Both the position numbers and the translations under genes were made by a program. This document shows, piece by piece, positions 43,078 through 53,993 of a stretch of DNA of 64,000 nucleotides (position 1 is its first letter; every line of letters starts with the position of its first letter). The notes beneath the pieces were generated by a model. The model had not been told where the DNA came from, made no database searches, and saw nothing but the letters and a program-made list of their open reading frames with translations. The stretch spans positions 1-64,000 of the forward strand of contig NZ_WFLM01000001.1 in assembly GCF_009208775.1 (NCBI RefSeq), read 5' to 3'. The DNA comes from Silvanigrella paludirubra. Its GTDB lineage: Bacteria; Bdellovibrionota_B; Oligoflexia; Silvanigrellales; Silvanigrellaceae.

Positions 43078-44022
43078 TTATTTGAATAATCCCTTGATAA
43101 ATTTTCCAACAAAACTAATTGTGTCTATGATACCTTTTCCAATTTCAACTGCTACTTGGCCAGCAGCTTCAAATCCTGCGACAATTTTTTCTCCAACATC
43201 ATTTGTTGCTTTTACTTTTTGATCTGTTTGTTTAACAATATCAATAATATTTTTAACAGTAGAGACGATTGGTGTGCTTGGTTTTGCTGGTTCAGGTTTT
43301 ACAGGATCTGGTTTTACAGGATCTGGTTTTACAGGATCTGGTTTTACAGGATCTGGTTTTACAGGATCCGGTTTTGTAGGATCCGGCTTTGTAGGATCTG
43401 GTTTTGTAGGATCTGGTTTTGTAGGATCTGGTTTTGTAGGATCTGGGAAACATAATTTTAATTGATCTGTTTCAGCAGCTGTTTCTTTAGCAATAAATTT
43501 TGTACTGACAGAACTACTTGCCGTTGTCGTTGCGCTAGCACTTGCTGAAGCTGATGCCGTTGTAGAAGATGCGGATTGTTCGGAAGCAGTTGTGCTGCTT
43601 TGCTCAGTCGACTTTTCAAGGTACTTGCTAGAGTTTGATTCAGAGTAATTATAAGTCTCTAAAACTTTTTGTTTATCTTCGGAAAGTCTTTGGAATGAGC
43701 CTGAATTCAATGGGTTGATTGAAAATTCTTCCGCTTTTGGTTTTTCTTCGGGTTTACTTCCTAAAGTACAGGATTGAGCTGTTGTTTCTGTTACCTTAAT
43801 AACCGTTTTTAATTCTTTTCCATCCTTATCTATTTCTCTCCAAACACCTAAATAAGAAGCTTTTTGTTGAGGAGGGGTTGGAGTTGCTGAAGCGGCAGCT
43901 GGATTTGTATCAGCTGATTGTGGTTGGCTATTTGATGAATTGGTTTTACCACAAGAAGCGGCTAAAAAGCTTATTAAAGTACCAGTTGCCACTAACTTAA
44001 CAAGACGATTTTGTAAATACAT
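43078..44022 (-). CDS. Lipoprotein with (PDPTK/PDPVK) tandem repeats
   Basis: A 314-residue lipoprotein. The signal peptide ends in the lipobox LAASC, so it should be lipidated at Cys-25. A GVWREIDKDGKELK domain of about 80 residues follows, then a Ser/Ala/Thr-rich low-complexity stretch (residues ~135-185). Next come five PDPTK and five PDPVK pentapeptides plus one PEPAK, and a helical C-terminus (IVDIIKQTDQKVKATNDVG-like). The Pro-Lys repeat resembles a periplasm-spanning or wall-spanning stalk. The start at 44022 has AGGAGAG upstream. Function unknown. Confidence 0.78.
   Translation of the reverse strand: MYLQNRLVKLVATGTLISFLAASCGKTNSSNSQPQSADTNPAAASATPTPPQQKASYLGVWREIDKDGKELKTVIKVTETTAQSCTLGSKPEEKPKAEEFSINPLNSGSFQRLSEDKQKVLETYNYSESNSSKYLEKSTEQSSTTASEQSASSTTASASASASATTTASSSVSTKFIAKETAAETDQLKLCFPDPTKPDPTKPDPTKPDPTKPDPTKPDPVKPDPVKPDPVKPDPVKPDPVKPEPAKPSTPIVSTVKNIIDIVKQTDQKVKATNDVGEKIVAGFEAAGQVAVEIGKGIIDTISFVGKFIKGLFK
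43293..43446. repeat. 15-bp tandem repeat (pentapeptide-coding)
   Basis: About ten copies of a 15-bp unit, plus-strand form GGTTTTACAGGATCT, with a variant block GGTTTTGTAGGATCT. The second block encodes PDPTK and the first PDPVK on the minus strand. The two sub-blocks of five nearly identical copies suggest recent slippage or unequal exchange. Confidence 0.93.
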
Positions 44023-45931: not shown

Positions 45932-46951
45932 ATGACAAATTCAAAAGAATATCCTTATGCAGCAAGCGTTTATATTGGGAGGTTCCAGCCTTTTCATAAT
46001 GGGCATTTAAACAGCATTAAATCTGCATTACAAAAATCGCATCGACTTATCCTTGTATTAGGTGGAGCTTATCTATCTCCATCAATAAGAGGGCCATGGA
46101 GTATCGAAGAGCGAATTCAAATGATTAAGACTTGTTTAACAAAACAACAATTAAATAGAATTGATTTTGTGTATGTCAGAGATAGATTATACTGTGAACA
46201 ATTATGGATCCAAAATGTAAAAGGCGAAGTTGCAAAATTAATTGATACAAATCTTCCCATTGCGATAATTGGTCATGAAAAAGATTCTTCTTCTTATTAT
46301 TTAAAAGTATTTCCGCAATGGTTTTTTTTGGAAACGGGAAACTTTAAAGGAATAAATGCAACAGATATTAGAAAAGCTTATTTTTTATCAGAAAATTTAA
46401 AATCAGCCTATGATAAAACCCCTAAACCTATATCAAACTGGCTTAAGAATTATCGGAAAAAAAATGCTTTTAAAATAATAAAAGAAAAATACAACTATAT
46501 TCAAAAAATGTTATCAAATACTAAATTAAATATGAATAATGATGTTTTTAATGTTTTTATAATTTGTAATAATTATGTATTATTGTTGAAAAGTAAACAA
46601 ACATTAAGAAAACATTTATTTTCTATGCCAGAAATTGAAGAGTTAAATCAAAATGATCCTAAAAATAGTATATTAAGTGAAATTATTTTTAAAAATTCCA
46701 GTATTAAATTAAATTTTGAATTATTGAATCATCGTATTTTTGATTATTCTGGGCGATATCCAATTGGAGTTCAAAAATCAAATACATTTTATTTTAAATT
46801 AAATCATGAAAATTTACCAGTCGTGTTACCTGGAAAAAATTCTGAGCATGTTGAATGGATATTATTAGATGATATTCATTTATTAGAAAATCAAATATAT
46901 TCAGATCATTTTCAAATTATGAGTTGGTTTTTAAATACTACTTCTTCATAA
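45932..46951 (+). CDS. nadM: NMN adenylyltransferase with C-terminal degenerate Nudix domain
   Basis: A 339-residue protein. The N-terminal adenylyltransferase (to about residue 180) has YIGRFQPFHNGHLNSI (HxGH-type), GGAYLSPSIRGPWSIEERI and the C-terminal INATDIRKAY motif, and makes NAD from NMN. The C-terminal half is laid out like the Nudix domain of two-domain NadM proteins, but the Nudix box is decayed: SMPEIEEL stands where LPGG... is expected and SEIIFKN where RExxEE should be. Hydrolase activity is therefore doubtful. The start at 45932 follows GAGG. Its 3' end overlaps the convergent bufC by 14 bases. Confidence 0.85.
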   Translation: MTNSKEYPYAASVYIGRFQPFHNGHLNSIKSALQKSHRLILVLGGAYLSPSIRGPWSIEERIQMIKTCLTKQQLNRIDFVYVRDRLYCEQLWIQNVKGEVAKLIDTNLPIAIIGHEKDSSSYYLKVFPQWFFLETGNFKGINATDIRKAYFLSENLKSAYDKTPKPISNWLKNYRKKNAFKIIKEKYNYIQKMLSNTKLNMNNDVFNVFIICNNYVLLLKSKQTLRKHLFSMPEIEELNQNDPKNSILSEIIFKNSSIKLNFELLNHRIFDYSGRYPIGVQKSNTFYFKLNHENLPVVLPGKNSEHVEWILLDDIHLLENQIYSDHFQIMSWFLNTTSS

Positions 46952-47774
46952 ATGCGGAGTGTTTTGTCATTAAAGACATCCATTCTGATAGTTTTGAAAT
47001 ATCAAAAAGATCTTCATTAATATCTGCATTTTCTATTGCGTTTTCTAAGTTTTGTTTTTTTGACAAGCCATGCATAATAGAAATAAAATCTTCTGGGATT
47101 AAAATAGTTTCTAAACTCCATTCACAACTCTTAAAAATTAAAATAGATTCATTTGTATTTTTTATAGAGCTTAATTCTTCAATTCTTTTTTCTTCTAATA
47201 TTTCTTCTGTTGTACTTTTTAATTCTGATAATTCGGAAAGATTTTTTGCAGAGCAATACATTTGAAAAATAGGCCACTGTGATTGCAAAAATATATGTTC
47301 CTCTTGCAGAAAAATTTCATTTGGCTGAGGAACAGTTGTTGAATTTTTTATGAGTAAAGACTCTTTTGGATTTGGGGCAGCTAAAATATCAGAAATATTT
47401 ATGCAAAGTTTTATAAAATCGGGAACAAATGGGCATTCTTGAATTTCATCTAATTTTTCAAGAAAGTATGGAAACTCCCGAATAGATTCTTCCATGTGGC
47501 TTGGTGTTGGGTTTTGATAAAAGTATTCTATTAGAAAACTTTTAATTAAGTCTTTGCCAAATAGTAAACTTGCTAATTTAAATATAGTTTCTGAAAAAAC
47601 AGATGAAATTCTGCTATAATAAGAAACCCGATACGCTTCAAGTCTATGAGCCGTTTTTTTCTCAAAAATATCCATTTCTTTTTTTTCAAGAATTTCGTGA
47701 ATATTTATATTTGGATTAGATGTTATGGTTTCTAAAAAAAAGTTTTGAATTTTTTTAAGATCATTTATTGTCAT
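46938..47774 (-). CDS. bufC: DUF2063 (BufC/HvfC-type) partner protein
   Basis: A 278-residue protein of the DUF2063 family, recognised by the N-terminal helical domain: LEAYRVSYYSRISSVFSETI and KSFLIEYFYQNPTPSHMEES. In characterised bufferin and related MNIO systems this protein binds the precursor leader or core and presents it to the DUF692 enzyme. The start overlaps the upstream bufB stop as ATGA, so both are made together. The C-terminal third is less typical and rich in Glu/Ser. Confidence 0.85.
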   Translation of the reverse strand: MTINDLKKIQNFFLETITSNPNINIHEILEKKEMDIFEKKTAHRLEAYRVSYYSRISSVFSETIFKLASLLFGKDLIKSFLIEYFYQNPTPSHMEESIREFPYFLEKLDEIQECPFVPDFIKLCINISDILAAPNPKESLLIKNSTTVPQPNEIFLQEEHIFLQSQWPIFQMYCSAKNLSELSELKSTTEEILEEKRIEELSSIKNTNESILIFKSCEWSLETILIPEDFISIMHGLSKKQNLENAIENADINEDLFDISKLSEWMSLMTKHSAFMKK

Positions 47775-48613
47775 GATATTCTATTTCCATAATTAATTTC
47801 ATAAATAATTTCATGAAAAGGAGCAATATCATCATCTCTTTCTATAATAACAGGGCGACTTCCAATATTTTTTAATGCCCATTTCATAAGATCCCAAACA
47901 GGATCGCATACTAATGAATCGTGCGTATCAAATAAATAATCATCCATTTTTGAATGGCCAGCAATGTGGTATTGATTTACGTAGTCTGGATTTATTTTTT
48001 CAATTTCTTTCTTATGATCATAGCCATGATTAAATGCGGAAACGTAAATATTATTAACATCTAATAAAACGCCACATCCTGTTCTCTTACATATCTCGTT
48101 TATAAATTCAATTTCTGAATATGTACTTTCATTATATGAAATATAAGAAGAAATATTTTCTATAGAAAATTGTCTTTTTAGAATATCTTGAATAATATTT
48201 ACATTTTCACAAAGTAAATTTAAAGAAACAGATGTAAATGGAATTGGTAAAAGATCAAAACTATTATGAGTCGGATTCGCAGAAAAACAAAGATGATCAG
48301 AAACGACTTTAGGTTGAATAGAATCACATAGATTTTTTAATAAATAACAATATTCTTTATTTAAGCCGAAAGCAGAAGCTAAATTTAAACCAACTCCGTG
48401 AACAACAGTACTTGTTCTTTCTGTAATACGACGCATATGGTATAAACCAGGTCCTCCTTTTAAATACATATAATTATCTGCCATAATTTCTAAAGTTGGG
48501 AGCTCTTTTATTTCATGCCAAAAAGAATAATGGGCTGCACGAAGGCCAGCCCCAAATATTCCTATTTTTTCAATACTTAATGTTTCATCAGAGTTACTTT
48601 GAGGAAAAGACAC
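47771..48613 (-). CDS. bufB: DUF692 multinuclear nonheme iron enzyme (MNIO, BufB-type)
   Basis: A 280-residue TIM-barrel iron enzyme. Metal-site blocks of DUF692 are visible: GAGLRAAHY near residue 22, an acidic LEIMADNY, VVSDHLCFSA near residue 105, LLDVNNIYVSAFNHGYD near 185, YHIAGH and DTHDSLV, and PVIIERDDDIAPFHE near the end. MNIO enzymes turn precursor cysteines into thiooxazole- or oxazolone-type heterocycles. Two Cys-rich precursors lie directly upstream (5-base gap). The start is a GTG with AAAGG upstream. Confidence 0.92.
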   Translation of the reverse strand: MSFPQSNSDETLSIEKIGIFGAGLRAAHYSFWHEIKELPTLEIMADNYMYLKGGPGLYHMRRITERTSTVVHGVGLNLASAFGLNKEYCYLLKNLCDSIQPKVVSDHLCFSANPTHNSFDLLPIPFTSVSLNLLCENVNIIQDILKRQFSIENISSYISYNESTYSEIEFINEICKRTGCGVLLDVNNIYVSAFNHGYDHKKEIEKINPDYVNQYHIAGHSKMDDYLFDTHDSLVCDPVWDLMKWALKNIGSRPVIIERDDDIAPFHEIIYEINYGNRIS

Positions 48614-48618
48614 ATTAA

Positions 48619-48975
48619 TTAACCTTTATCGACTATTTTTTTCCCATTTGAGTCTTTTTTTATTAAAAACCCACCTTCAATTTTATGACAAGAACCTTTA
48701 GCAACATAGACCCAAGCAAGATGCCCCTTTTTATCTGATCCAGGGACATTGCCGGCGCATTCAAAAGTTGTACTTTTTTTGTATTTATTTTTGAATGCAG
48801 CGTTAGCTGCGGCAATTTCTTCTTTATCAATAGAGCATCCATTTTGTTCTTTTTTTTGAATTCCATAACATTTTTCAACTTCTTGGGTAACAATTGTTTC
48901 AGCTGGAGAATCTGCCTTTGCACTTAAAAAAATACCATTTAATGCAGCGGCTAATATAATTTCTCTTTTTTTCAT
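48619..48975 (-). CDS. bufA: Cys-rich secreted precursor 2 (DUF2282/BufA1-like bufferin)
   Basis: A 118-residue precursor. A short signal peptide (residues 1 to about 21, ending AKA) precedes a mature part with four Cys (36, 47, 73, 96). VEKCYGIQKKEQNGC and WVYVAKGSCHKIEGG match the DUF2282/BufA1 pattern (EKCYG...C, W-V-x-V-x-x-x-x-C-x-x-x-x-G-G). Residues 48-72 between Cys-47 and Cys-73 form an extra helix-like stretch (AAANAAFKNKYKKST) absent from typical DUF2282. It is expected to be modified by the DUF692 enzyme, exported and to bind copper. The ATG at 48975 follows GGGGGC. Confidence 0.82.
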   Translation of the reverse strand: MKKREIILAAALNGIFLSAKADSPAETIVTQEVEKCYGIQKKEQNGCSIDKEEIAAANAAFKNKYKKSTTFECAGNVPGSDKKGHLAWVYVAKGSCHKIEGGFLIKKDSNGKKIVDKG

Positions 48976-49010
48976 AACTGCCCCCAAAAGTTAAAAATTG
49001 AAATTTAAAA

Positions 49011-49361
49011 TTAAAGTTTTTCTATTTTGCCTTCTTTATCCATTAAAAACCCGCCAAGTTTTTTACAATCTTCTTTTGTTTTTACTTTTGTCCAATTTAA
49101 ATTTCCGCCTTTTCCAGCGCATTTAGCTTCAGCACCGCATTTATGAGCAGTTGCTTTTGCATATTTGTCACCAAATTCTTTTTTCGCAGCTTCTACATGT
49201 TTTGCATCTACAGCGCATTGTGCTTTATCTTTACCCGCAGATTTCCCACCGCAGCTATTAACTCCCCAGCAATTCACTTCTGCAGCACTTGCAGCAGAAA
49301 CTATACCAACAGAAAGACCAGCAACAGCAGCGCATACTAATAGCTTATTCTTACTTGACAT
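49011..49361 (-). CDS. bufA: Cys-rich secreted precursor 1 (BufA2-like bufferin)
   Basis: A 116-residue precursor with a strong signal peptide (residues 1-26, VSAASA). The mature part has six Cys (31, 37, 49, 75, 81, 99). CWGVNSCGGKSAG and TKVKTKEDCKKLGGFL follow the BufA2-type pattern. The region between Cys-49 and Cys-75 (AAKKEFGDKYAKATA) has exactly the same 26-residue spacing and similar residues as in the other precursor, and Trp-90 also aligns. The ATG at 49361 is seven bases after AAAGGAGG, the best ribosome site in the operon, consistent with high expression of a metallophore. Confidence 0.82.
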   Translation of the reverse strand: MSSKNKLLVCAAVAGLSVGIVSAASAAEVNCWGVNSCGGKSAGKDKAQCAVDAKHVEAAKKEFGDKYAKATAHKCGAEAKCAGKGGNLNWTKVKTKEDCKKLGGFLMDKEGKIEKL

Positions 49362-49413
49362 ATACATTCCTCCTTTAGGAAATAAAATAAATTAGGACAT
49401 TATCATAACAGAT

Positions 49414-50067
49414 TTATTTAACAGAACGTGAACCTTCGCAAGAAATATTTATCGTAACAGTATCTCCTACAACGGGACCCGCTTCAACAATATTTTGGAA
49501 ATTGACTCCAAAATCTTTTCTATTTATTTCTGTTGTTGCCTTAAAGGCTTGCATTACTTTATCTTTTGATTTGATTTGTCCTTTATGAGTTACTTTAAAA
49601 GTAGCTTGTTTTGTAACTCCACGTATTGTTAAGTCACCAACTAATTCAAAAGAATTGTCACCTGTTTTTTTAGCTGACGTTGATTTAAATGACATAGTAG
49701 GGAATTTTTTGACATCGAAAAAATCGGCACTTTTAAGATGGTCATCACGTTTTTTTACAGATGTATCCACTGATGCTGCTTCAGCTGTTGCTTCAATTTG
49801 AGTTTGAGATAGATCTTCTGGATTAAATTTAAATGTTCCTTTAAATTTTTTGAACTCTCCTGTTACTGTACTAATAACAAGATGCGCTACTTCAAAAGAA
49901 ACTTTTGAATGATCTTGATCTATAACATAGTTTTGTAGACTTTCTGCAGCCGCTACAATAGTACCTTGTTTTTGAGAATCAGGACTTTTTGTTTCTGCAA
50001 GCGCATAAAAAGGAAAAGCTAAGAGTGTTGAAAACAAGTATACCTTTGTAACTTTATTAGCGATCAT
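49414..50067 (-). CDS. yceI: YceI-family periplasmic protein
   Basis: A 217-residue exported lipocalin-like protein. A signal peptide (residues 1 to about 23, ending YALA) is followed after a 25-residue linker by the YceI fold: YVIDQDHSKVSFEVAHLV, FKGTFKFNPEDL, KRDDHLKSADFFDVKKFP, DLTIRGVTKQATFKV and FGVNFQNIVEAGPVVGD. YceI proteins bind long isoprenoid chains. It lies 52 bases upstream of the bufferin genes on the same strand and may share their transcript. The ATG at 50067 is set by AAGGAG. Confidence 0.92.
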   Translation of the reverse strand: MIANKVTKVYLFSTLLAFPFYALAETKSPDSQKQGTIVAAAESLQNYVIDQDHSKVSFEVAHLVISTVTGEFKKFKGTFKFNPEDLSQTQIEATAEAASVDTSVKKRDDHLKSADFFDVKKFPTMSFKSTSAKKTGDNSFELVGDLTIRGVTKQATFKVTHKGQIKSKDKVMQAFKATTEINRKDFGVNFQNIVEAGPVVGDTVTINISCEGSRSVK

Positions 50068-50109
50068 TAACATCTCCTTAGTAAAAAATTCATTAGTATG
50101 CAAAGTATC

Positions 50110-50138
50110 AAAATAGATTTCAAAAATAAACATGTCAA
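50110..50138 (-). promoter_or_regulatory. Sigma70-type promoter of yceI (and possibly the bufferin operon)
   Basis: Minus-strand TTGACA (50133-50138), a 17-bp spacer and TATTTT (50110-50115), about 43 bases before the yceI ATG. The -35 box is perfect and the -10 box matches four of six. No clear terminator lies between yceI and the bufferin genes. Confidence 0.6.
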
Positions 50139-51476: not shown

Positions 51477-53993
51477 TTATTCTAACAAAAATACAAATCC
51501 ACCTTGGAGTAATAATCCGGTAGAAGATAATGCTTGGCTAGGATTGACATTATAAGAAGCAGAAACTCTAAATAAAATATCTGTTAATAAAATACCTAAT
51601 TCACCAGGATAAACATCAAATATGGGAACTAAACTAATATCTAAATTTCCACCAAATTCAAAAATAGGACTAAATTGAGTTATTCCTAATGGCTTGTTTG
51701 TTGTATTATTTGATGCATCTGTTGATGCGTCTTCTCTAAAACGGGTACCACCTACACCGACAAATATTCCTGGTTGAATATAAGACCAACTTGGATTCCG
51801 GTACCTTATTCCTAATAAGGCTTCGGCAGTTAATGCATAAAATTTTCTTGTGTAGGTTTGCTGTGTGCCAAGCATTATTGTGCTGCTTGTGCTTGTATTG
51901 AATAAATAGCGTCCTAAAATTCCTGTAGATAAGCCAAAATTTCCGAACCAAAATAAATAATTTGAGCCTATTTCAAAATGTCCGGTTGGTTGAGAATTAT
52001 AGTATTTATCATAATAAACTTTATCGTCAGTAGGAATTAAAATACCACCTGATAAAAATAGATCATAATTTGGTTGTTTATCTTTATTTGAAACCGCATT
52101 TGATTTATATGTTTCTTTATCTTTTTTGGGTTTATCAATAGATGGAGGCATAATATTTTTATTTATGACATCTTTTTTAGCTGGGTCTTCTTCTTTAGAA
52201 TTGTCACTTGTGTTACTTAAGTTTTCTTTTTTAGCAGGTTCTTCTAATTTAACTGACTCATCAGTTTTAGTTTTATCGCTTGAATTACTTAAATTCTCTT
52301 GCTTAGCAGGTTCTTCTAATTTAGTAGGTTCTTCAGTTTTAGCTTTATCGTTTGTGTTACTTAAATTCTCTTGTTTAGTTGGTTCTTCTGTTTTTATATT
52401 TGGGTTTTCTTTTATCTCGTTTTGCAAAGGAGACTCCGGAATTTCTTGTGCAGAAGCTTCTTGATTCCAAATAGAACCTGCCTTTTGTAATAGAGATTCT
52501 AAGAATTCACCTGATTTTTTTGCATATCCTGATAGTCGATAAAGTGCTTTACCAGAATATTCAAAAAACAAATTAAACGCAGGTTTTAATTTTGGATTTT
52601 CATCTAGCCAATTTGCCCAAACCTGAGCATGTTTATAATAAAATGGAGTAATTCCCATAGGAGTAAGATAAGTATCTCTTAATATACGCCAATAAAAAAC
52701 AGAATCACTGTTAATATCACCAGAAGCTGCTGTTACAACAAAACAATCTTTTGTTTTTGGAAGATTAGGGGATTTATCTGTGCTTGCTAAGGGAAGGCTT
52801 ATTCCTGTAACGTAACTAATATTAGAATGAGCAAGGCTGTAATTCGGACTTAGTGTTTTTGAACTTGAGTCATAAGCGTTATTAAGAGCCCAAGCCATAA
52901 CTCCGTAAATCGCTCCATTGCTGATATTGCCTTTACTCCAAGAGCTTTGTGAACCAGGAACATAAACAACATTGTAACAACCTGAAGGTGTTCCATTACT
53001 ATCACTTGAAATTTGTGAAGGATTGGTAATACCGGGAGTATAGGGAATTGCTGCTAAATCTCCTGTTAATGAAATTGAATTTGTTGCAAAAAGACTTGAA
53101 GGGGCAACGGATGAACAACCGATTGCACTTGATGATCCTCCAGACATAAAACTGGATTGATAAGGTGTGTAGGTGCAAGTATAAGGTGTGGTAGAAGCCG
53201 TTTTTAAAGAAACAGAATTCATAGCAAACTGCCAATTTCCAGGACTGGCGCCACAACCTGTCGATTTTCCATTAGCGTCTTTATCAAGCCAATAAACAAT
53301 AACGTAACCAGATAAAGTGTTTGGATTGGCTGTAGCTGTTAATGTTCCTGCTGTAGCTTGCTCAACGGCATTTAAACTCGAAGGCGCAGATAACGTAACA
53401 ACAAAAGCGCTGTCTTGAGCTTTTACAGAAATGCTTGGAGCATTTACCATTGCACCTGTGTCTGCCTGCCAATAAAAGCTTGTGCCCCCAGGAGTTGAGA
53501 TTCCATTATAAAATGGCGTAAATTGTATGCCGCCATTTGAAATGGCGCCAATGATATCGTTTGGTAAAATATTATTTGCTTTGGTAAAATCAATTGTAAC
53601 TTTAATCGAGCCTTTATAAGTAGAAGTATTAAATCCTCCTACATCAGAGGTTACTGTTACCCCATTTGAAAAAGTAGCTGCTTGATAGTACTTAAGATAA
53701 TTCCCAGTTGTTGCTCCAATGGCAACACCCCATTGTGTTGGGTCATGTTTAAACGTAATTCCACTTGGAATGCTTATCGATATTGGATAAGTTAGAACTA
53801 ATTTGCCTATTGAACCTGCTGTTTGGTATTGTGAGGGAGGTGCAAAAGTTGAAGTAGTGCTATTAGGAGCATAAATTTCAATCGTTGCTGCCGATGGCGT
53901 ACAATCCGAACACGGTGCTAAACTTTGAGCATACGTAAAACTCGTAAATAAACAGACAACTGCTATATATATCAATGAAAATATATTTTTCAT
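51477..53993 (-). CDS. Large secreted protein with CFI-box-like domain, charged repeats and C-terminal barrel
   Basis: An 838-residue exported protein. A signal peptide (residues 1-23, FTYAQ) is followed by a 400-residue Ser/Thr/Gly-rich region. Next comes a CFI-box-like block: CFVVTAASGDINSDSVFYW then ILRDTYLT, with a helical tail (SGKALYRLSGY), as in CFI-box-CTERM proteins. A Pro/Lys/Glu region has three copies of a repeat around EEPAKQENLSN. The last ~200 residues read as outer-membrane strands (GHFEIGSNYLFWFGNFGLST, YIQPGIFVGVGGTRF). The start at 53993 has GAAAGAAA upstream. It is encoded 17 bases after asd. Function unknown. Confidence 0.72.
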   Translation of the reverse strand: MKNIFSLIYIAVVCLFTSFTYAQSLAPCSDCTPSAATIEIYAPNSTTSTFAPPSQYQTAGSIGKLVLTYPISISIPSGITFKHDPTQWGVAIGATTGNYLKYYQAATFSNGVTVTSDVGGFNTSTYKGSIKVTIDFTKANNILPNDIIGAISNGGIQFTPFYNGISTPGGTSFYWQADTGAMVNAPSISVKAQDSAFVVTLSAPSSLNAVEQATAGTLTATANPNTLSGYVIVYWLDKDANGKSTGCGASPGNWQFAMNSVSLKTASTTPYTCTYTPYQSSFMSGGSSSAIGCSSVAPSSLFATNSISLTGDLAAIPYTPGITNPSQISSDSNGTPSGCYNVVYVPGSQSSWSKGNISNGAIYGVMAWALNNAYDSSSKTLSPNYSLAHSNISYVTGISLPLASTDKSPNLPKTKDCFVVTAASGDINSDSVFYWRILRDTYLTPMGITPFYYKHAQVWANWLDENPKLKPAFNLFFEYSGKALYRLSGYAKKSGEFLESLLQKAGSIWNQEASAQEIPESPLQNEIKENPNIKTEEPTKQENLSNTNDKAKTEEPTKLEEPAKQENLSNSSDKTKTDESVKLEEPAKKENLSNTSDNSKEEDPAKKDVINKNIMPPSIDKPKKDKETYKSNAVSNKDKQPNYDLFLSGGILIPTDDKVYYDKYYNSQPTGHFEIGSNYLFWFGNFGLSTGILGRYLFNTSTSSTIMLGTQQTYTRKFYALTAEALLGIRYRNPSWSYIQPGIFVGVGGTRFREDASTDASNNTTNKPLGITQFSPIFEFGGNLDISLVPIFDVYPGELGILLTDILFRVSASYNVNPSQALSSTGLLLQGGFVFLLE
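52190..52400 (-). repeat. Imperfect ~66-bp coding repeats in the CFI-box/barrel protein
   Basis: Three imperfect copies of a sequence coding for K-(L/x)-EEPAKQENLSN(T/S)(N/S)DK-type units. They encode a charged flexible linker between the CFI-box-like block and the C-terminal barrel. The copies differ by several substitutions, so the expansion is older than that of the 15-bp repeat near 43.3 kb. Confidence 0.75.

Follow-up and report, generated by a model that had tools for sequence, protein, structure and literature searches.

A bufferin-type operon of Silvanigrella paludirubra with two probably paralogous cysteine-rich precursors beside one MNIO enzyme and its partner

The first 64,000 nucleotides of contig NZ_WFLM01000001.1 of Silvanigrella paludirubra (the window) contain a compact operon which encodes two exported cysteine-rich precursors (A2 and A1), an enzyme of the MNIO (DUF692) family (B) and a partner protein of the DUF2063 type (C). 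We think it probable that the operon is of the bufferin type (captophorin) and buffers copper in the periplasm, with one MNIO/partner complex modifying both precursors. The bufferin-type assignment, which had been made in an initial annotation of the DNA, is upheld by the identity of the MNIO and its partner and by the match of A1 to DUF2282.

Layout of the operon

The four genes reported by the initial annotation, lying on one strand with gaps of 5-35 bases and an ATGA overlap, were all recovered, on the minus strand (Table 1). The distances are 35 nucleotides (nt) between A2 and A1, 5 nt between A1 and B, and -4 nt between B and C, where the overlap is located. A YceI gene, separated from A2 by 52 nt, precedes them; it had been overlooked, as had, at other sites in the genome, two further MNIO genes and a third precursor, which has six Cys and is unlinked. 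Because AAAGGAGG is located 7 nt ahead of the ATG at 49361, the ATG at 49367 is an unlikely start for A2. The open reading frames (ORFs) of A2 and A1 both precede the MNIO gene, and by inspection both products have Sec signal peptides, with cleavage sites ASA-AE and AKA-DS. The mature parts contain six (A2) and four (A1) cysteines, in agreement with the initial description of two exported small proteins.

The MNIO enzyme and its partner

The MNIO scored 284 bits against PF05114 (cut-off 25). Among all MNIO models of NCBIfam the best match by far was MNIO_BufB (NF050167) with 285.3 bits, which is under the equivalog cut-off of 310. Positions conserved in the family are kept, including the DTH and ERD motifs. 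The DTH motif probably corresponds to D242 and H244, residues essential in HvfB (PMC13419390), and the proposed catalytic aspartate of FonB, D249, is in the ERD motif (PMC13097082). An aspartate follows ERD, and it does so too in 59 of 73 neighbouring enzymes that were read, which are mostly Buf2-linked; Asp at this site has been tied to Cys-Lys (Buf2) substrates (PMC13097082).

By the Pfam model itself, the assignment of the partner to DUF2063 is weak (16.1 bits, cut-off 27.2), but it is upheld by 12 of 13 relatives of the protein, which match DUF2063 (best E 2.7e-15), and by the predicted fold. The best solved matches of the AlphaFold2 model (predicted local distance difference test, pLDDT, 88.6) were the TglHI chain 8hi7_A (E 1.2e-5) and NGO1945 (3dee, E 2.2e-3); TglI is the partner of TglH, and 3dee is named as the typical MNIO partner (PMC12452194). 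A sequence search of solved structures with the precursor and partner profiles gave no match. In genome G002, MNIO and DUF2063-type partner are apparently fused in one 605-aa ORF (L032, 2700-4517), a naturally occurring parallel to the engineered HvfBC fusion (PMC13419390).

Conservation in the genus

The order YceI-A2-A1-B-C is kept in all seven genus genomes carrying the locus; an eighth, 72% complete, was without it. Protein identity across the locus was 47-100% for the pairs measured, and the ratio of nonsynonymous to synonymous substitution rates (dN/dS) was 0.05-0.33 for every gene in all pairs, indicating purifying selection. Chance or mis-called ORFs are excluded by this conservation of gene order together with the dN/dS values. 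For these calculations and for the family scans YceI had been cut at 50076, three codons too early, which did not affect the conclusions. Values for the precursors were 0.08-0.33 (A2) and 0.05-0.11 (A1), and the latter range shows that the four-Cys gene is not decaying. A frameshift in A1 of G007, caused by one extra A in an A-run of this 130-contig draft, is most likely an assembly error. The G+C content was 30.5%.

Two of the genomes, G009 and G013, form a deep branch of the genus. In the five-Cys branch (see below) a gene for an exported Cys-rich protein of TPR/Sel1 type continues the operon, overlapping the partner gene by 4 bases (L024, 5637-6383; L025, 2889-3632).

Relationship and origin of the precursors

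The initial annotation had proposed comparison of both precursors with the DUF2282 and BufA2 models. A1 scored 39.3 bits on DUF2282, over the gathering cut-off of 22.4, so that one of the two precursors does match a bufferin model; A2 scored 16.3 bits on NCBIfam BufA2, whose equivalog cut-off is 60, and was therefore filed as a bufferin-like protein of an insert subgroup and not as BufA2. Its six cysteines are conserved in all seven orthologues.

The precursors had been taken for two distinct kinds; instead they appear to be paralogues. In protein searches A1 and A2 find each other with E values of about 1e-9 to 1e-13, and both carry, between Cys3 and Cys4, an insert of about 20 residues which is absent from classic Buf1 and Buf2. 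The insert is also present in precursors from other families of the class, such as the unlinked third precursor of the window genome (G000:C5:452028-452372). Mean scores of A1 were 57 bits against insert-type precursors, 37 against A2, 22 against Buf1 and 6 against Buf2, and in a tree calculated without the insert and Cys columns Buf1 was split off (100/99), with A1 on the opposite side.

The cysteine numbers form a series: the sole precursor of a sister genus (L030) is A1-like and has six, the A1 orthologues of the deep-branching G009 and G013, in which Cys2 is kept, have five, and the remaining A1 proteins have four. The four-Cys forms score 34-39 bits on DUF2282 and nothing on BufA2, whereas the five-Cys forms score 25.6 and 23.1 bits on BufA2 and, with 18.8 and 20.8 bits, fail DUF2282. 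Judged from these sequences, the simplest account is that A1 and A2 descend from a duplicated six-Cys gene, A1 having then lost Cys5 and later Cys2. Since the five-Cys orthologues fail DUF2282 and lean towards BufA2, A1 most likely became Buf1-like through the two Cys losses.

Alternatively, A1 could be a true member of Buf1 (DUF2282) and A2 one of Buf2, clustered as in Pseudomonas without any duplication in this lineage. This would fit the DUF2282 score of A1 and the existence of classic Buf2-Buf1-MNIO clusters, and in an approximately unbiased (AU) test without the Cys and insert columns the grouping of A1 with Buf1 was not rejected (p 0.42). A tree-based proof of the origin of A1 was thus not obtained, and the case for its derivation is built chiefly on the insert that it has in common with A2 and on overall similarity. 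Taking into account that the insert is common to A1 and A2 and missing from both classic families, that A1 scores far better against insert-type precursors and A2 than against Buf1, and that the orthologues in G009 and G013 fail DUF2282, this alternative seems unlikely.

The sequence around the cysteines bears on their predicted modification. The central cysteines of A2 are followed by G, A, S or T at 27 of 28 positions, unlike those of Buf2, which are followed by Lys; if A1 is included, the only exceptions are three lysines, each after Cys2. The first cysteine is trailed by W, Y or F in all 13 A1/A2 sequences. Conservation of signal peptide versus mature part was 0.58 versus 0.62 for A2, 0.51 versus 0.68 for A1, and 0.34 versus 0.70 for YceI. 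A fold search with the A1 model (pLDDT 74) gave no meaningful match, and in plasmids, where 352 records had an MNIO relative, just 3 weak A1 matches were obtained.

The unlinked six-Cys precursor (L146, 3993-4373; also L147, L148 and L150) adjoins a gene for a CHASE-Hpt-HATPase sensor (L146, 4501-7053). The two genes diverge in the genus, and in the distant G046 one lies immediately downstream of the other, at 10 bp. Precursor and sensor may possibly constitute a metal- or redox-sensing pair.

Proposed action of one enzyme complex on two precursors

Whether one MNIO/partner pair serves several precursors has been posed as a question (PMC12452194). The proposal of the initial annotation that one enzyme pair acts on two substrates gained from two single-contig relatives, G008 and G012, where one MNIO and one partner each were found along with 2 and 3 precursors, respectively. 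Should both precursors undergo modification in these relatives, a single complex does it, this being the sole MNIO and partner found. The window genome has three MNIO genes in total. In the sister genus (g5), MNIO-partner pairs without an adjacent precursor (L031, L033 and L034) coexist with an insert-type precursor on another contig (L149, L154 and L155), a split arrangement in keeping with an enzyme that acts at a distance.

The following points weigh against our interpretation. The two other MNIOs of the window genome could serve one of the precursors, the NCBIfam equivalog cut-offs are missed by both A2 and the MNIO, and the AU test leaves room for a grouping of A1 with Buf1.

The two additional MNIO genes differ in context. 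One belongs to a second cluster (L001; G000:C3, MNIO 494535-495335), which encodes a precursor with repeated KDGCGQK-like motifs, the MNIO, a DUF2063-type partner and a DoxX-like protein, flanked by a divergent ECF-sigma-factor-like gene and, after it, a possible regulator. The other (L003; G000:C2:623920-624717) encodes a divergent MNIO of 271 aa (PF05114, 143 bits), has no listed partner or precursor adjacent and has relatives in G010 and G013.

It could also be that the complex has a single substrate, the other precursor remaining unmodified in the periplasm, where it would be disulfide-bonded and have a different function. Such a possibility has been named for genomes with more precursors than enzymes (PMC12452194), and unlinked six-Cys precursors without an adjacent MNIO do occur in this class. 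Both precursors, however, have small residues after the central cysteines, conserved signal peptides and a record of strong purifying selection, both are located directly before the enzyme in every genus genome with the locus, and mixed pairs recur in other bacteria, all of which make this explanation quite unlikely. That the peptides are modified with a main task other than copper (another metal such as gold or mercury, or oxidative stress) is also improbable. In its favour, YceI lipocalins have roles in the biology of lipid peroxides and quinones (PMC9113575), bufferin operons have also been named gold-induced genes and MerC-bufferin fusions exist (PMC12452194). Against it, those 5-thiooxazole peptides that have been characterised are copper binders or give protection against copper (PMC13097082, PMC12452194), an argument qualified by one 5-thiooxazole-type cluster that was neither expressed nor copper-responsive (PMC12538549).

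Comparison with known systems

The operon resembles the Buf1 system (DUF2282; BufA1-BufB-BufC of Caulobacter vibrioides) in that the MNIO and DUF2063 partner directly follow a Sec-exported precursor, A1, which has the four-Cys pattern and is over the DUF2282 cut-off. It differs in the insert (Cys3-Cys4 in six-Cys numbering), the second precursor in front, YceI, and the lack of adjacent sigma/anti-sigma genes. With Buf2 (Buf_6/12Cys, NCBIfam BufA2) it shares the six-Cys pattern of A2 and the Asp after ERD seen in most Buf2-linked enzymes, and the nearest relatives of the MNIO are mostly Buf2-linked (70 of 80 loci). A2 is set apart from Buf2 by its low BufA2 score, by the insert, and by having small residues where Buf2 has Lys behind the central cysteines.

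Similar in layout are mixed clusters with six-Cys and four-Cys precursors on one strand and one adjacent MNIO-DUF2063 pair. In Pseudomonas (L046, L051 and L082) and Caulobacter (L066) the order is Buf1-DoxX-(hydrolase)-Buf2-MNIO-partner. Two gammaproteobacterial examples were reached through a survey of 229 genomes: L171 (Buf2-Buf1-MNIO-partner-DoxX), whose A2-A1-MNIO-partner order is identical to that in the window, and L172, from a genome with a single MNIO, in which Buf2-MNIO-partner-Buf1 is followed by two YceI genes. The mixed clusters have precursors of the classic Buf1 and Buf2 types, which lack the insert, and most of these clusters carry DoxX. Among the 70 nearby Buf2 loci, a Buf1 profile revealed seven with a same-strand Buf1 gene no more than about 3.2 kb upstream of the MNIO; at least one of these (L048) possesses a further MNIO behind its Buf1. 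Tandem Buf2 genes occur in four of the 70. Six-Cys and four-Cys genes as direct neighbours were found in none of the 80 named loci.

The idea that the two-precursor layout is unique to the genus was thus refuted by the mixed clusters detected with the Buf1 profile and by L171 and L172. Since such clusters occur elsewhere and tandem precursor genes, more than one per MNIO, have already been reported (PMC12452194), the layout is a recurrent variant and not a new kind. From those tandem clusters it differs in the insert subgroup, the YceI link and the lineage, which are not described in the parts of that paper available to us. New here are the insert subgroup, the apparent change from six to four cysteines within one genus, the link to YceI and the single-enzyme genomes.

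A broader and tentative proposal, for which we see a limited chance of being right, is that six-Cys and four-Cys bufferins form a functional pair beside one MNIO in unrelated bacteria, with complementary roles and one enzyme complex. Such pairs could have arisen by combination of classic Buf2 and Buf1, as in Gammaproteobacteria, or by reduction of a second six-Cys copy to four cysteines, as in this genus.

YceI and regulation

The promoter candidate 42 bases before yceI lies around a TTTGAC element common to all seven genus members; in the region, 12 promoter-type consensus matches were found versus 18.7 expected by chance. No sigma-factor gene is located beside the operon, and Buf2 clusters are usually without one (PMC12452194).

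YceI also adjoins bufferin-type genes in G045, G017 and G016, which belong to the class of the window organism; near the MNIO of the 80 named loci there was none. Because YceI lipocalins bind isoprenoid quinones and BcnA counters lipid peroxyl radicals (PMC9113575), a joint role of YceI in copper-driven membrane damage is a reasonable guess. In L172 (1483-3210) the gammaproteobacterial bufferin cluster is followed by YceI, a cytochrome-b561-like gene and YceI, which joins two known stress modules.

Proposed mechanism

In the mechanism that we envisage, the MNIO/partner complex would bind A1 and A2 through the conserved signal-peptide region, which would double as leader. In bufferins and oxazolin the signal peptide takes the part of the leader (PMC13419390 and its reference 38), and the signal peptides of A1 and A2 are, unlike that of YceI, conserved nearly like the mature parts, as expected for such a function. 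The central cysteines would be converted to 5-thiooxazoles, four in A2 (C2-C5) and two in A1 (C3 and C4), and the first and last cysteines would pair as a disulfide. These positions are predicted from the small or aromatic residues following the cysteines and from two precedents. The 5-thiooxazole-forming FonBC allows no residue other than Gly or Ala behind the Cys that it modifies, and a mass change of -8 Da was seen with it for two modified Cys (PMC13097082); in Buf1, modification falls on the central cysteines, and a disulfide joins the first to the last (PMC12452194).

Both peptides would pass through Sec and act as periplasmic copper binders, with A2 offering roughly double the number of modified sites of A1. 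The initial annotation had spoken of a secreted peptide; the Sec signals and the published systems (PMC12452194, PMC13419390) suggest that the products should be periplasmic. YceI probably takes care of lipids or quinones under the same stress. A1 itself would go back to a six-Cys copy that lost Cys5 first and Cys2 second.

Features of the window

Table 1. Positions of the operon genes and the promoter candidate in the window
Feature	Position	Strand	Basis
A2, six-Cys exported bufferin-type precursor, insert subgroup	49011..49361	-	Inspection of the reading frame; BufA2 model, 16.3 bits
A1, four-Cys exported bufferin-type precursor, probable paralogue of A2	48619..48975	-	DUF2282, 39.3 bits
B, MNIO (DUF692, BufB-like), GTG start	47771..48613	-	PF05114, 284 bits; NF050167 MNIO_BufB, 285.3 bits; family-invariant residues kept
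C, BufC-like partner (DUF2063/PME-type)	46938..47774	-	Pfam matches of relatives; fold matches
YceI-family exported lipocalin-like protein, first gene of the block	49414..50067	-	PF04264, 167.6 bits; adjacent in 7/7 genus members
Candidate sigma-70-like promoter (TTGACA-17-TATTTT) upstream of yceI	50110..50138	-	Consensus match only

Two in-frame tandem repeats were observed elsewhere in the window: about 11 copies of a 15-base unit at 43279-43446, encoding (DPTKP)n in an exported lipoprotein-like ORF, and 2.5 copies of a 72-base unit at 52213-52389 in the gene of an exported 858-aa protein.

Implications

The profile libraries separate Buf1 from Buf2 along a line that divides the orthologues of a single gene, and YceI joins the genes linked to bufferins. 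If six-Cys and four-Cys bufferins do act as pairs, the peptides would have complementary roles, for example copper storage and transfer, or different affinities. The genus supplies single-contig genomes with one MNIO and one partner as well as second precursors with four or five mature cysteines, and because it offers such genomes and orthologues, both the question of one enzyme for many precursors and the effect of cysteine number are directly testable.

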